Both the position numbers and the translations under genes were made by a program. From an uncultured Methylococcaceae bacterium (lineage in GTDB: Bacteria; Pseudomonadota; Gammaproteobacteria; Methylococcales; Methylococcaceae): a DNA stretch of 32,580 bases. A model generated the notes under the pieces. It was not told the origin of the DNA. It saw only the letters and a list, made by a program, of their open reading frames with translations, and did no database searches. Where the stretch lies: NCBI GenBank assembly GCA_903859815.1, contig CAIOOA010000074.1, forward strand, positions 1-32,580, read 5' to 3'. Below are positions 27,855 to 32,580 of this stretch, piece by piece (the stretch's first letter is position 1; the number at the start of each line of letters is the position of its first letter).

Positions 27855-28478
27855 ATGATTATCGCCATACTCAATCAAAAAGGCGGGGTCGGCAAAACCA
27901 CGCTATCCGTGAACTTGGCAGCCGCACTGGCCTTGTCGGGCAAGCGCACCTTGTTAGTCGATGCCGACCCGCAAGCCAGCGCATTGGACTGGCAGGCGGC
28001 AAGGAAAGGCGAAAGCCTGTTCCCAGTGGTGGGCATCGCCAAGCCGACCTTGCACAAGGACATTCCCGGTCTTTCAGGCGGCTATGAACATGTCGTCATC
28101 GACGGCCCGCCTAGGGCCAACGAGTTGGCGAAGTCGGCAATCATGGCGGCCGACTTGATTGTGATACCCGTTCAACCTTCGCCCTACGATGTCTGGGCCG
28201 CCGAGGAAATCATCAAGCTCTACCAAGAAGCCAGCCTGTTCAAGGAAAACCTCAAGGCTGTCTTCGCCATCAACCGAAAGATTGGCAACACCGCGATTGG
28301 TCGGGATGTGGGGGCAGCCTTGAAGAGCTACCCGTTCCCGTTGGCGGTTTCCTTCATCAGCCAGCGGGTGGTGTTTGCCGAAAGCGCAGCCAGTGGCCTG
28401 TCCGTGTTGGAAGCCGAACCCAAAGGGCCGGCCGCCAAAGAAATCCGATCCCTCATGCAAGAATTGTTGGAGTTTTGA
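27855..28478 (+). CDS. parA: ParA-family partition ATPase, stand-alone
   Basis: The product has 207 aa from the ATG at 27855, with AAGGA 6 nt upstream; the frame stays open further upstream but that part is not protein-like. It has the deviant Walker A KGGVGKTT (Lys9, Lys14), the A' motif DADPQ (36-40) and Walker B VVIDGPP (80-86). The short form without an N-terminal HTH is typical of type Ib plasmid partition and of orphan ParA proteins that position cellular cargo on the nucleoid. The next gene starts 3 bp after the stop. No ParB-like gene follows. Which cargo is moved cannot be seen. Confidence 0.9.
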   Translation: MIIAILNQKGGVGKTTLSVNLAAALALSGKRTLLVDADPQASALDWQAARKGESLFPVVGIAKPTLHKDIPGLSGGYEHVVIDGPPRANELAKSAIMAADLIVIPVQPSPYDVWAAEEIIKLYQEASLFKENLKAVFAINRKIGNTAIGRDVGAALKSYPFPLAVSFISQRVVFAESAASGLSVLEAEPKGPAAKEIRSLMQELLEF

Positions 28479-28481
28479 CCC

Positions 28482-28832
28482 ATGGCAAAGAAAACCATTA
28501 CCATATCCCGCAAGCCCACCGCCGATACCTCCGCCCCGGTGGAGAGTGAGCCACCTGTCACTTCGTCAGCCTTGGCATTGAATTGGGAGCCACCCTCCAA
28601 AGCGTTGCCAGAAAGTCCAGAGGCTCAGGTGGCAACCACCCCATTCGCTTACACACCCTTTGAATTGGCGGTTTATGCCCCGGCGTTTTACCTGTCCTAT
28701 GGCCTAGCCTTCAGCACGATCATGATGAGCGCATTCATACCCGGTAGCGGTTTGATCCGTCAAGGCATTCATGACGGTGTCCATGCGGCACTAAAGCCGG
28801 TCGGGGTTTGCAACCCCGACGGAAACGTTTGA
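28482..28832 (+). CDS. Small protein of unknown function, probable ParA partner
   Basis: The product has 116 aa, starting 3 bp after parA and so almost surely co-transcribed. It has a short basic start (MAKKTITISRKP), a Pro/Ser/Glu-rich flexible part to about residue 55, then a hydrophobic helical segment (about 58-105: FELAVYAPAFYLSYGLAF, then IRQGIHDGVHAAL). Basic N-terminal peptides that stimulate ParA ATPase are known in ParB and McdB-type partners, so it may be an adaptor between ParA and a cargo (inference). Residues 107-113 are encoded by a palindromic repeat (28800-28820), so the original C-terminus may have been altered. Family not recognised. Confidence 0.7.
   Translation: MAKKTITISRKPTADTSAPVESEPPVTSSALALNWEPPSKALPESPEAQVATTPFAYTPFELAVYAPAFYLSYGLAFSTIMMSAFIPGSGLIRQGIHDGVHAALKPVGVCNPDGNV
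28800..28820. repeat. Palindrome overlapping the end of the ParA-partner gene
   Basis: A perfect 9-bp stem GTCGGGGTT/AACCCCGAC with loop TGC covers codons 107-113 of the gene. It resembles the stems at 28859 and 29443. There is no T-run, so it is not a classical terminator. Confidence 0.75.
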
Positions 28833-28891
28833 AGATCGCATCAATGCACCAAAAGTAAGCGACGGGATTACAAACCCCATCGCGCTTCGGT
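28831..28891. repeat. Left copy of a ~60-bp direct repeat with hairpin
   Basis: About 60 bp containing CACCAAAAGTAAGCGACGGG and the stem GCGACGGGATT/AACCCCATCGC (28859-28883) are repeated in the same direction at 29415-29475. The two copies frame the 22-bp array and the MITE. Confidence 0.75.
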
Positions 28892-28912
28892 ATTGACGGG
28901 GGCGGTGAGCCT

Positions 28913-29175
28913 TCCTACGGGAGTATGAGAGGGTTGCTACGGATATAGAAGAGCTTTCACACGGGAGTCGGAGAGGATTCCTACAGGTGTAGGAAATCCT
29001 TCCTATCGGAGTAGTGAAGAGTTCCCATGGGAATGGGACAGTCTTTTACGGGAGTGGGTTAGGGTTCATACTGGCGTAGGATAGCCTTCATACGGCAGTA
29101 TGAGACGGTTCCTACGGGTATAGGATAGCCTTCCCACGGGAGTTGGAGGAGATTCCTGCGGGTGTAGGATAGCGT
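28913..29175. repeat. Tandem array of twelve 22-bp hairpin units
   Basis: Twelve units start at 28913, 28935, 28957, 28979, 29001, 29023, 29045, 29066, 29088, 29110, 29132 and 29154; all are 22 bp except the seventh (21 bp). A typical unit is a 6-bp arm TCCTAC, a 4-base loop GGGA, the arm GTAGGA and a 6-base spacer TAGCCT. Arms vary together in some units: unit 4 TCCTAC/GTAGGA, unit 6 TCCCAT/ATGGGA, unit 9 TCATAC/GTATGA. Spacers alternate between purine-rich (GGGT, GGAT, CGGT) in odd units and pyrimidine-rich (TCCT, GTCT, GCCT) in most even ones, a 44-bp higher-order period. There are no spacers of unique sequence as in CRISPR. It begins about 80 bp after the ParA partner gene. Confidence 0.9.
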
Positions 29176-29203
29176 TCCGCTGGTTCCCAAGCTTCATCTC
29201 TCG

Positions 29204-29399
29204 TCGTTATACACAATGTCGGAGACACGTCATTTCGGCATGGATGCCGAAATCCAGCGTCCATGGATGGCAAGCTATAATTAGCCCGTTTCACTTAATC
29301 AAGCACTTACGCCATCTGATCGTTACCATCCTTGGTCTGGATACCGGCATCCCTGCCGGTATGACGGCACTACGGCTTGGCGGGACTTGTGTATAACGA
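29204..29399. mobile_element. 196-bp MITE with 13-bp terminal inverted repeats
   Basis: Perfect inverted ends TCGTTATACACAA (29204-29216) and TTGTGTATAACGA (29387-29399) enclose two REP-type palindromes (29229-29257 with TTCGGCATGGATGCCGAA, and 29337-29365 with ACCGGCATCCCTGCCGGT). The middle shares ACTTAATCAAGCACTTACG and GTTACCATCC with the element at 16461-16598. No coding capacity. Confidence 0.8.
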
Positions 29400-29414
29400 T
29401 GAGCGCGGAGCGTG

Positions 29415-29475
29415 TGAACGATCAAAAATACACCAAACGTTAGCGACGGGGTTACAAACCCCGTCGCGCTTTGGT
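29415..29475. repeat. Right copy of the ~60-bp direct repeat with hairpin
   Basis: This matches 28831-28891 (ACACCAAACGTTAGCGACGG here). Its stem GCGACGGGGTT/AACCCCGTCGC with loop ACA (29443-29467) is a perfect 11 bp, against imperfect in the left copy. It ends about 20 bp after the CHAT-STAND-TPR gene (minus strand) and could also shape the 3' end of that transcript. Confidence 0.75.
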
Positions 29476-29495
29476 GGGAACGATAAACGATGGGC

Positions 29496-32400
29496 TTACA
29501 GCTTTTCGAGCAGCAGGAGGATTTCGGCGGCCATGGAGAAGTCCAGATCCGGCGCGTGGGCGAGTTGTGGGTCGCGGCTGCCGGCGACGATGGTTTGCAG
29601 GGCGTGGATGAAGGTGTGTGCGTTGCTCGGCAATCCAGGATTCGCGGCGTGTGCTTGCAGCAGTTCGGAGGCGGCGGTGTTGTCCCCGGCTCGCAAGGCT
29701 TGAGCCACAGCAAGAGCGGTGCGGCCATCCGAGTTGTGATTCTCGCCGCCGTCGCGGCGGTAGGCGAGATAGCAGTTTAACGCCTTGGCTCTCGCCTCGG
29801 CGGCGGCGGTTGGGTTGCCGTCGTCGGTCTCAATCTCGGCGAGAATGGCCCAAGCATTCCAAATTGTACCCGCATGACCGAGGGACTTCTTGCATTCAAT
29901 CGCACGATGGATTTCCTGACGGGCTTCTGCTATGCGATTGAGCTTTCTCAAGCAAATGGTGAGGTTGCTCCGGGCGGATCCTTCACTAGCTGTGTCACCG
30001 ATTTCAATATATTTGTCAGCGGCTTGGCTTAGGAAAGTGATGGCATCTTCGATGCGACCTAAGGAATCACCATATAAGTGCCCTAATTGCCCCAAGGTTT
30101 TCACCTCTACTGCAATTTCACCAAGTCGTACACTTATTTCTAGCGATTTGCGGTAAGCATCCTCCGCCATTTCCGGCTGTCCTATTTTCTGATATACCAA
30201 ACCAGTATGATGCCAAGCGATGGCGACCGAACCCGGCTCGTCCATATTTGAGAAACGCTCACGGATATCCTGATAAGCCGCCAGAGCTTCAGGGTAGCGG
30301 CGCTGATCAAAGCGGACAGTACCAAGCCTGAATTTGCCGATGGCGACTTGTCGATCATTATTGAGTTTTACAGCATGGCGAATAACCTCTTCATAAGCCG
30401 CCGCCGCTTCATCCAATCGGCCCAAGCTTCTCAAACAATCGCCTCTTTCTACCAAACAGACGGATGCCATCTGTTCGTCTTTATGGGCTCCTTGCTCCTT
30501 GGCAATTGCTTCAAAACGTTGTTGCGCCTCGTCCAATACAGGCAAGGCAAGTTTCGATTGACCAGCAGTCTTCAAAACTACACCCAGCAGAATGTAAGCC
30601 ATCGCCAGATCATAATCGGCACTCGGATAGGCATGTTCACCTGTTGATCTTGCACGTTGCAGCAAGGCAGTAGCGCCTTCATAAGCCTCACGCAAATGCC
30701 CACTGCCCAACTGCTGTTCGATCCGGGTCCGTTGTGCCTCAAACTGCGCATGGTTCCAACAGTCGCCTAGCTTTGCCGCTGCCGCATCACGCACTCGTCT
30801 CACACGTTCCAGCAAGCGCGGTTTGCCTAGGAATTGCAACAAGCTGTAGAGCGATGTGGTCAAGTCTATTGTCTCTTCTGGGTCACCCGATTGTTGAACC
30901 CGATCGAGCAATGCAAACAGATTCGACAATTCAAAGCCTGTCAACGTCGCCGCAATTTCGGCGTTCTGACCTCGCCATTGCACGAGGAACCTAATATGTA
31001 CAAGCATTTCCTCTACCCAATGAATAGTCAACGCCTCTCGTTCCGCGTCGTCCATCTGACCTCGCAGATAAGGGCAGAGCGAGGGGTTCAGGCTCAGATG
31101 ATTATAAGGGTTGGGGGTTGCCAAGCCGGTGGCAATCAATTCCTCCGCCAACAATTCCACATCCGCTTGTTCCCATTGCATCATGGTTCGTAGCACATCC
31201 AAATCGACTCCGCCCTGAAACACGCCCAACACCTTTACCTTGTCTTGGGTTTTGGGTGACAAGCGGCGCAGCGAGAGTTCCAAGCTGGCATAGACCGATT
31301 GTTCACGGTTGCCGGGGTAACACCGTTCCATCTCCGCCATCAGTTTCACCAGATCGGCATGGGTGCGTTCCACGCCGAGAGTGCGGATGGACGGGGCCAG
31401 CAGCGCCAAAGTGCGGGCGTGGCAGTGGACGGCTTCGACCAGTTGGATGATGGATTCGGTGGTGTCGGTGTTGGAGTGCAAGGCTTGCCTTGCGGGGGGT
31501 TGCGGGTTTGGGCAAGGCAAGCCTTGCACTCCAGTTGTGGTATTCAACGCCCGTTCGACCAGCTTCACCGCGTCGTCTTGGGCGAGTTGGTGCAATTCAA
31601 TACGGTTGCAGTCGGCGGCGAAGGGTTCGGGCAAGGCTTCGCGGCTGGTGAAGATCAGGCGGGTGGTTCGATAACCCTCTCCCCCAACCCCTCTCCCGCA
31701 AGCGGGAGAGGGGAGCAAAAGCCCATTATTCTGATTAGGGGATGATGGCAAAAAGCCCCTCTCCCCACCGGGGAGAGGGGTTGGGGAGAGGGGGTACGAA
31801 CAACCAAGCAACCTCGCCAACAACTTAAGGATTTCGCCCAACTCTCGATGCGCCTCTTCGGTCAAGATGGCCGAGGTGTGCAGATAAGGCGGCATCAGAA
31901 TGCTTTCCATATTGTCGATCACCAACAGCGTGGCCTGTTCCTTCAAAGCACGTTCAACCGGCAGGATGGCCTGTTCCAAGTCGGCGAAACTGGCGACGGA
32001 GTAATTCGGCACAAGTTGATGGCCTATCGCATCCAACACGGCAGAGGTTGTGCTATGCAACTCCACCGACACAAATGCGACGCGGCGGATTTGCTGCGAG
32101 CGGACCAGCCAACGGGCGAACTCGGCGGCGAGCGCGGTCTTGCCTTCGCCGCCCTGCCCTCTTATCACCGCATAGCGCTCCTGTTTCAATAAACGTTGCA
32201 AGGCCAGCAGTTCGCGGCTACGACCGATGAAACCGGTCTCCGGTTCTGGTGGGGTTGCGCCTAAACGGTTGTGCAATGCGGTTTGCGCATCGGCTATGGT
32301 TTGGTTGGACGGCATAGCACGGAATAACTGCGGGTCGTCCTTCTCTTGGAACAGCACTGGCACGAACCAATCCTCCAAGCGGAAGTCGCCTAGCCCAAAG

Positions 32401-32580
32401 ACTTTCCCCCGGAAGCTGTCGTCTTTCAAGGTTCGCTGTCCGGCCAGCATCGCATCGCCGACCCGCGCTCCCTTAGCCAAGGCCGCATAAAACGCCTCGA
32501 CAAAGCGTCGGGCGGTTTCCACTAATACGGAATGGCTCATGGCGACGACCGAGGCCACGCCGACTTTCAGCAGTTCCGAG
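29496..32580 (-). CDS. CHAT-STAND NTPase-TPR protein, N-terminus outside the window
   Basis: The frame is open from the window edge; at least 1027 codons are seen (numbers below count from the Met at 32558). The first about 80 residues are the end of a CHAT (caspase-like) peptidase domain: ASVVAMSHSVLVETARRF, then GDAMLAGQRTL and WFVPVLFQ. A STAND P-loop NTPase follows: GFIGRSREL, Walker A GQGGEGKT (134-141), Walker B LLVIDNME (211-218), sensor RLIFTSREALPEPF. After about 480 come helical and TPR repeats (LLGVVLKTAGQSKLALPVLD, TGLVYQKIGQPEMAEDAYRK). Such proteins act as sensors that activate a protease, often in phage defence or cell-death pathways (inference). Two repeat elements are inserted in frame (residues about 254-296 and 343-363). 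The catalytic His/Cys lie outside the window. Confidence 0.85.
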   Translation of the reverse strand, partial: SELLKVGVASVVAMSHSVLVETARRFVEAFYAALAKGARVGDAMLAGQRTLKDDSFRGKVFGLGDFRLEDWFVPVLFQEKDDPQLFRAMPSNQTIADAQTALHNRLGATPPEPETGFIGRSRELLALQRLLKQERYAVIRGQGGEGKTALAAEFARWLVRSQQIRRVAFVSVELHSTTSAVLDAIGHQLVPNYSVASFADLEQAILPVERALKEQATLLVIDNMESILMPPYLHTSAILTEEAHRELGEILKLLARLLGCSYPLSPTPLPGGERGFLPSSPNQNNGLLLPSPACGRGVGGEGYRTTRLIFTSREALPEPFAADCNRIELHQLAQDDAVKLVERALNTTTGVQGLPCPNPQPPARQALHSNTDTTESIIQLVEAVHCHARTLALLAPSIRTLGVERTHADLVKLMAEMERCYPGNREQSVYASLELSLRRLSPKTQDKVKVLGVFQGGVDLDVLRTMMQWEQADVELLAEELIATGLATPNPYNHLSLNPSLCPYLRGQMDDAEREALTIHWVEEMLVHIRFLVQWRGQNAEIAATLTGFELSNLFALLDRVQQSGDPEETIDLTTSLYSLLQFLGKPRLLERVRRVRDAAAAKLGDCWNHAQFEAQRTRIEQQLGSGHLREAYEGATALLQRARSTGEHAYPSADYDLAMAYILLGVVLKTAGQSKLALPVLDEAQQRFEAIAKEQGAHKDEQMASVCLVERGDCLRSLGRLDEAAAAYEEVIRHAVKLNNDRQVAIGKFRLGTVRFDQRRYPEALAAYQDIRERFSNMDEPGSVAIAWHHTGLVYQKIGQPEMAEDAYRKSLEISVRLGEIAVEVKTLGQLGHLYGDSLGRIEDAITFLSQAADKYIEIGDTASEGSARSNLTICLRKLNRIAEARQEIHRAIECKKSLGHAGTIWNAWAILAEIETDDGNPTAAAEARAKALNCYLAYRRDGGENHNSDGRTALAVAQALRAGDNTAASELLQAHAANPGLPSNAHTFIHALQTIVAGSRDPQLAHAPDLDFSMAAEILLLLEKL
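31472..31533. repeat. Inverted-repeat element inside the STAND gene (22-bp arms)
   Basis: The arms TGGAGTGCAAGGCTTGCC... (31472-31493) and its exact reverse complement ending GCCTTGCACTCCA (to 31533) are perfect over 22 bp with about 18 bp between. The same arms occur at 1417-1438 and 1496-1517. It encodes GVQGLPCPNPQPPARQALHS (residues about 343-362) without breaking the frame. Confidence 0.85.
31671..31796. repeat. REP/MITE-like insert in the NTPase domain
   Basis: Near-complementary ends (CCCTCTCCCCCAACCCCTCT from about 31676, GGTTGGGGAGAGGG near 31780-31793) enclose two smaller palindromes, CTCTCCCGCAAGCGGGAGAG and CTCTCCCCACCGGGGAGAG. The insert is read in frame as YPLSPTPLPGGERGF and SPACGRGVGGEGY. 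It splits the NTPase domain between LLARLLG and TTRLIFTSRE. Confidence 0.85.

Follow-up and report, generated by a model that had tools for sequence, protein, structure and literature searches.

What role does a regular row of short palindromes play beside a parA gene in an uncultured Methylococcaceae bacterium? The question was raised by an initial annotation of the window, the stretch of 32,580 nucleotides analysed here (contig CAIOOA010000074.1), which described the row as twelve hairpin units and read it as possibly the centromere-like site of the adjoining ParA pair or a structured non-coding RNA. That a real, regular and palindromic array is present was borne out by our analysis; the link to ParA and the RNA were not. 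We lean towards a different reading, according to which the array in the window is an orphan of a family of gene-linked DNA arrays of tandem sites, which belongs to a gene for a helical/FN3 protein and would be covered by protein.

The array consists of twelve contiguous palindromic units at 28912–29174 on the forward strand, as judged from the sequence, TRF and a parse into units, and it starts and ends one base earlier than originally placed. Eleven units are of 22 bp and unit 7 (29044–29064) is of 21 bp, as had been described; an alternative parse puts the missing base one unit earlier. A degenerate leading unit (TTGACGGGGGCGGTGAGCC, 28893–28911, forward strand) precedes the array. It is parsed as a unit in the arrays of two contigs of a sister species (G002:C141 and G002:C420), and in the window it was seen by alignment with these, the former being the ortholog. 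At the other end, four bases (TTCC) of a thirteenth unit (29175–29178, forward strand) are followed by the edge of another repeat (CTGGTTCCCAAGC). The family consensus of the unit is TTCCTACGGGTGTAGGANAGNN. The spacers of odd and even units differ, and TRF recovered the 44-bp period that had been ascribed to this difference (44 × 6.2, 68% matches, score 218) along with the simple period (28908–29178, 22 × 12.4, 62% matches, score 118). The arms of the twelve units form 56 Watson-Crick pairs of 72 possible; units 4, 6 and 9 do have perfect 6-bp arms of three different sequences, and the AGGAT/ATCCT extension of the hairpin around unit 4 is present in the sequence. The consensus is palindromic to a degree far beyond chance, with 4.13 of 6 pairs per unit compared to 1.52 when letters are shuffled within units (86 gapless units from nine arrays). 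The most conserved columns of the unit include G9, G10, A6 and T2, and conservation thus takes in the loop. A CRISPR array was considered and rejected, as the units are contiguous and alike, with no unique spacers between repeats.

Several other elements surround the array. Two copies (88% identical) of a 49-nt hairpin repeat, at 28843–28891 and 29427–29475, flank the array region, and a MITE-like element with 17-bp inverted ends (CTCGTCGTTATACACAA/TTGTGTATAACGATGAG) occupies 29200–29403. A related MITE-like element of about 175 bp is found in C198, with dozens of copies among the matches listed, in genomes G000, G002, G005 and G006. In G002:C500 (L062, 1–140), a tandem repeat of about 23 bp (AAGCGGGAGCTTGGGAACCAGC) adjoins the array, and the edge of this repeat, in reverse complement, comes after the array of the window at 29179. 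A large STAND-like protein of AAA/TPR type is encoded on the reverse strand at 29496–32558; its start gives a weak, partial match to CHAT, and the protein may be cut short by the end of the contig.

Arrays of this unit type occur elsewhere. In the genome of the window (G000, 5.8 Mb in 315 contigs), four were found, in C74 (the window), C71, C198 and C228, by a search in which 150 of 574 candidates were scored. Two sister species hold five more, four in G002 (C141, C420, C500 and C447) and one in G001 (C600). At E 0.1, an array match was obtained in 6 of 61 genomes, own genome included, namely G000, G001, G002 and three with a single weak match. A strict array pattern, which fits only three of the nine known arrays, was run against 84,980 species, a set that may lack records from the genome of the window itself; it gave two contigs, both in the record of the G002 species (uncultured Methylococcaceae MAG Loclat_bin-06492). 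The array of the window, the partner of ParA and gene copies were not found in plasmids, one divergent gene copy was not found in phages, and one array pattern and one gene copy were not found in viral contigs. Between orthologous arrays, 225 of 273 aligned columns match for the window and G002:C141, with many gaps, 241 of 259 for C71 and C500, and 197 of 232 for C228 and C447. The leading end of the array is common to the window, C141 and C420, and both ends are common to C71, C198 and C500; ends are not shared between types. The neighbors, with names read from sequence, are a higA-like gene (C71, C500), a TPR gene with a phd-like gene (C228, C447), a PEP-CTERM-like gene with a 126-aa gene (C420) and the 126-aa gene (C198, C600).

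This 126-aa gene is the short form of a small multicopy gene that encodes about 115 residues of helices, to which the long form adds an FN3 domain. At E 1, its copy P0001 matched nothing in Pfam, NCBIfam or PADLOC, and two sister copies gave Pfam matches below cut-off only (best DEC-1_N, E 0.004). Among the long paralogs, Pfam fn3 scored above cut-off in one of three copies scanned; the predicted model of the long form (pLDDT 87, pTM 0.50) comprises a helical part and an FN3 sandwich, and the best 50 Foldseek matches listed were FN3 domains or chains with FN3-sized alignments. For the N-terminal helical domain there was no family above curated cut-off and no fold among the matches listed, and the domain proved not to be basic in any of the five intact copies computed. 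No toxin family (ToxN-like endoribonuclease) appeared in the Pfam, NCBIfam and PADLOC scans of the copies tried, the fold matches being FN3. The long form is present in 32 of 301 genomes of the order, in three genera of 50; in a sample of the phylum, the gene was found at E 1e-8 in own genome only, among 398 genomes.

The relation of array and gene is seen most directly in the short form. Seven genomes of the genus contain four full copies (C198, C420, C600 and C345) and a remnant at C141, plus longer paralogs. An array lies 5′ of the gene in three of the four (C198, C420 and C600), C345 being judged on 160 bp of upstream sequence. A REP-like inverted pair (GTAGGAGCGGGCCATGCCCGCG / CGCGGGCGTGGCCCGCTCCTAC) was observed upstream of the latter copy (L110, G001:C345, 1–90). 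The closest relative of the window array that retains an intact gene is G002:C420 (74% DNA identity over 258 bp, E 7e-33), where the array lies 5′ of the 126-aa copy. At the G002:C141 locus (L060), a gene remnant of the C-terminal 24 residues (79% identity, E 1e-7) lies 28 bp from the array and reads away from it. The array in G000:C291 (L236) runs straight into residues 166–214 of a long copy. At both loci the 5′ part of the gene has been lost and the array retained beside the 3′ part. The fetched flanks of C71, C228, C500 and C447, and the window, hold no significant gene remnant (best E 0.06). As the C141 remnant and the partial gene of C291 indicate that arrays can outlive their genes, the array of the window is best read as an orphan whose gene has been lost. 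It is degenerate compared with its G002:C141 ortholog; it is probably a decaying copy, and its function has probably been lost as well.

The association extends to the long form and to other genera. In the genus, TRF reported arrays of 21, 22 or 43/44 bp 5′ of the gene in 13 of 25 loci, three of short form and ten of long form; the long-form arrays have periods of 22 bp (C24, C28, C223, C160, G002:C455, G006:C394 and G005:C364, the last with three copies), 21 bp (C60 and G002:C4) or 44 bp (G004:C418). TRF found none in the other 12 loci, several of which are cut by the contig end. For the order, we used 60 loci picked by hand from the gene matches listed, which is not a random draw, and 12 loci of the genus. 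Of the 60 fetched loci, 14 had an array upstream and one had an array downstream by TRF alone. By autocorrelation, z exceeded 3 in 39 of 70 upstream segments of at least 200 bp, and in 38 of these the lag was 21–22 or 41–44; downstream, z exceeded 3 in 5 of 72, at scattered lags. Under a stricter length limit, the top lag fell at 20–23 or 41–45 in 57 of 67 upstream segments (12.3 expected), compared to 60 of 286 flanking controls (52.5 expected; 18/61, 11/50, 14/68, 12/60 and 5/47), and z exceeded 3 in 37 of 67 upstream segments versus 6/61, 3/50, 5/68, 2/60 and 0/47 of the controls. Since the loci are not independent, those with similar DNA in the upstream segments were placed in one group; of the 29 groups so formed, 24 had the lag (5.3 expected) and 16 also had z above 3. 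The signal was present upstream of all seven genes tested in the own genome, which has ten gene matches. Within the genus, 15 of 18 loci passed by z and 16 of 18 by lag, the two missing by lag (G002:C30 and G005:C263) being incomplete genes; the figures for other genera, where the signal is frequently weak, were 23 of 52 and 43 of 52. Several arrays, mostly of 21 bp, sit in long frames without stop codons and are possibly coding. Lags of 22, 43 and 44 do not follow from a heptad code; for these, the counts were 28 of 70 upstream versus 2 of 69 downstream.

The intact modules typically have an upstream array of 8–20 units of 21–22 bp, and over 38 loci the distance from the end of the best periodic window to the start codon is 68–622 bp (median 290). 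In six of 72 gene loci, all six of this genus, the sequence GGGTAATATTCAC occurs between the array and the start codon, at −105 to −112, with zero or one mismatch; one of the 72 had no upstream sequence. We considered GGGTAATATTCAC as a promoter and set this aside; a promoter scan of one of the six loci gave no site, and we therefore refer to it only as a block.

The period and the side of the arrays are kept, and their sequence differs between paralogs. In the strong arrays, an arrangement of a 6-nt arm, a 4-nt loop, a 6-nt arm and a 6-nt linker recurs with unrelated sequences. Tested on 16 arrays, this geometry gave 4.30 of 6 pairs compared to 3.27 under column permutation, and 8 of the 16 reached p < 0.05 (Fisher 3e-8); over all 70 loci, 12 did so (Fisher 6e-4). 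The geometry had been suggested by eye from arrays that were also in its test, and the analysis was repeated with free geometry; here 4 of 15 arrays of the genus (Fisher 5e-5) and 4 of 24 others (Fisher 0.004) had p < 0.05. The arrays of C24 and C600 gave no hairpin geometry in either test. Period and side are thus general features, and a clear dyad is limited to part of this genus. The turnover of sequence is evident in the pair C24 and C223, which are 92% identical both in the gene and over the 140 bp that precede it, compared to 65% across the region of the array (average of shuffled pairs, 41%); the fixed array window of this comparison misses the array of G002:C455, whose array values in it were not used. 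One array unit is shared between species by C160 and G002:C455, so turnover is not always fast. At 10.5 bp per turn, 22 bp corresponds to 2.1 turns, so that units placed on one face of the helix would drift around it; 21 bp fits better.

The reading with which the annotation began, that of a centromere-like site for the ParA/partner pair, is suggested by position. A ParF-like ParA-family ATPase of 207 aa (27855–28478, forward strand) lies two genes upstream of the array, followed by a partner of 116 aa (28482–28832, forward strand) that had no Pfam or NCBIfam match at E 0.1. The twelve units with inverted repeats and the 44-bp period also recall sopC of plasmid F, for which PMC6238139 gives twelve 43-bp repeats. 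Unlike sopC/parS, the arrays here are not tied to par genes, occur at several loci per genome and differ in unit sequence between types. The parA pair adjoins the array in two of nine cases, the window and G002:C141, which are orthologs of each other; other copies of the array do not accompany parA. The same array at loci without parA, which had been named as telling against the proposal, was found in part: such arrays exist in the own genome and in relatives. Conversely, the pair in G001 and G006 has no array beside it, and the same holds for G003 within the few hundred bases downstream; the partner is conserved in G003 and G006, where no array was found. Its identity to the partner in the window is 78% in G001, 45% in G006 and 44% in G003. 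A partner profile has relatives in 27 of 38 genomes of the family. Of 38 profile matches, 29 were taken for a downstream test and 28 had enough sequence; 26 of these are without a 22-bp signal downstream, and the two with it are the window and C141. In many of the 27 genomes, partner residues of about 61–105 recur in open frames of about 120–240 codons (L240–L267), with at most two matches per genome. The predicted model of the partner (pLDDT 50) is too poor to judge DNA binding. The window and G002 parA differ at 13 of 621 positions, all of them third codon positions. The three species with arrays of this unit type do have the closest partner proteins, which shared ancestry explains as well, and the C141 remnant links the ortholog's array to another gene. 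A centromere function is thus highly improbable, both proteins are judged to be outside the system of the array, and its position beside parA is best read as incidental. A less remote reading, though still quite improbable, is that of a structured RNA, with the array transcribed into a chain of hairpins that would serve as an sRNA, a leader or a type III-like RNA that partners the gene product. The window array folds better than its shuffles, but does so on both strands (z −3.0 and −4.1), and its MFE pairs join different units. In the window alone there is a weak excess of arm covariation (p = 0.007 with 11 units; p = 0.026 with 12 units and p = 0.045 within odd/even class), which disappears when nine arrays are pooled without the six flanking pseudo-units at array ends (435 pairs observed versus 438.4 expected, 111 units, p 0.73). 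In a separate count on rows of two units in four arrays, 72.7% were paired compared to 73.3% when shuffled; consensus and count used 29 of 43 rows, the 14 with a 21-nt unit being omitted. Neighboring units did not pair beyond expectation (410 versus 405.6). The arm mismatches show no excess of G-U, with 40 G-U versus 45 A-C, the mirror of G-U on the other strand. With neither covariation nor G-U excess, RNA structure is unsupported. The orientation of the array to the gene also varies, C420 being opposite to C198, C600 and C141, and purine content on the gene's strand exceeded one half in 13 of 39 arrays, with no clear strand bias. Rfam gave no match at E up to 1 within 28400–29600, and a scan of 28500–29500 gave no promoter-like site; a terminator-like site does lie within the array, at 29023–29038 (two in the region, 0.9 expected). 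The placement upstream of a small protein gene is shared with type III toxin-antitoxin loci (toxI arrays), and an array kept after gene loss resembles an antitoxin kept after its toxin is lost. Unlike those loci, the units here are of 21–22 bp and typically in 8–20 copies, the protein is helical plus FN3, and in the one locus scanned (L219) the gene's strand has no terminator separating the array from the gene, one weak site being on the other strand. A CsrA-type sponge RNA with GGA in the loops was considered and dropped, as many units lack GGA in the loop.

A non-functional minisatellite is a more serious contender, although we consider it rather unlikely. Here, a palindromic seed would have been amplified by slippage, spread by duplication and left to drift, and its link to the gene would reflect inheritance only. 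Orthologs do change in copy number by whole units, as in minisatellites (VNTR), with the single 22-bp gap between C71 and C500 and different unit numbers in the other ortholog pairs. The missing covariation, the existence of orphan copies and the degeneracy of the window array relative to its ortholog all agree with such an origin, and a minisatellite that has no function could, if inherited vertically, retain its side and period for some time. Against it, the 21–22-bp period 5′ of the gene is found repeatedly in two families, with units of unrelated sequence, and short arrays of the window type were absent among the scored candidates (150 of 574, own genome), all nine trimmed arrays having 11–15 units. 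A geometry that is kept at the level of the family, while sequence is not, fits a protein-bound DNA array.

For the gene-linked family, to which we assign the window array as an orphan, action at the level of DNA is suggested by the lack of covariation and of G-U excess, the opposite orientations to the gene and a spacing near two helical turns. The array would act in the form of double-stranded DNA, its sites following one another at intervals of about two helical turns and being covered cooperatively by a protein, either the gene product or a regulator. Such coverage would control or mark the gene, and the unit sequence would drift and then be re-homogenised. A further and tentative step, possible but doubtful at present, takes the helical/FN3 protein and an obligatory upstream array of 21–22-bp tandem sites, constant in period and position, as a two-part module, in which the protein would recognise geometry or co-evolve with its array, as a system of self-recognition or a nucleoprotein filament. 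On this account, since array sequence turns over between paralogs, gene lineages would acquire arrays of their own.

Both tandem arrays of binding sites and interspersed modular repeats are already known, the former from sopC (PMC6238139) and the latter from BOX (PMC3049150). The arrays resemble the BOX elements of streptococci in being interspersed and intergenic, with a variable count of tandem internal modules and predicted stem-loops. Unlike BOX, they have no boxA/boxC-like ends common to the whole family, are tied to one gene family and are built of a 21–22-bp unit whose sequence is not common to the array types. No description of a gene-linked array kept in geometry and not in sequence was found in the literature searched, which lay mostly outside subscription journals and in part comprised the best-listed papers only. 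REP/BIME elements are dispersed palindromic units with alternating spacers, a likeness to the present arrays; the units here are much shorter, at few loci and gene-linked.

The finding amounts to a testable rule. Where a member of the helical/FN3 family is present in the order, a repeat pattern of 21–22 bp can be predicted 5′ of it, with no need of its sequence. Non-coding elements conserved in geometry only, and not in sequence, escape ordinary homology searches, and for these arrays the rule names a protein to test against its DNA.
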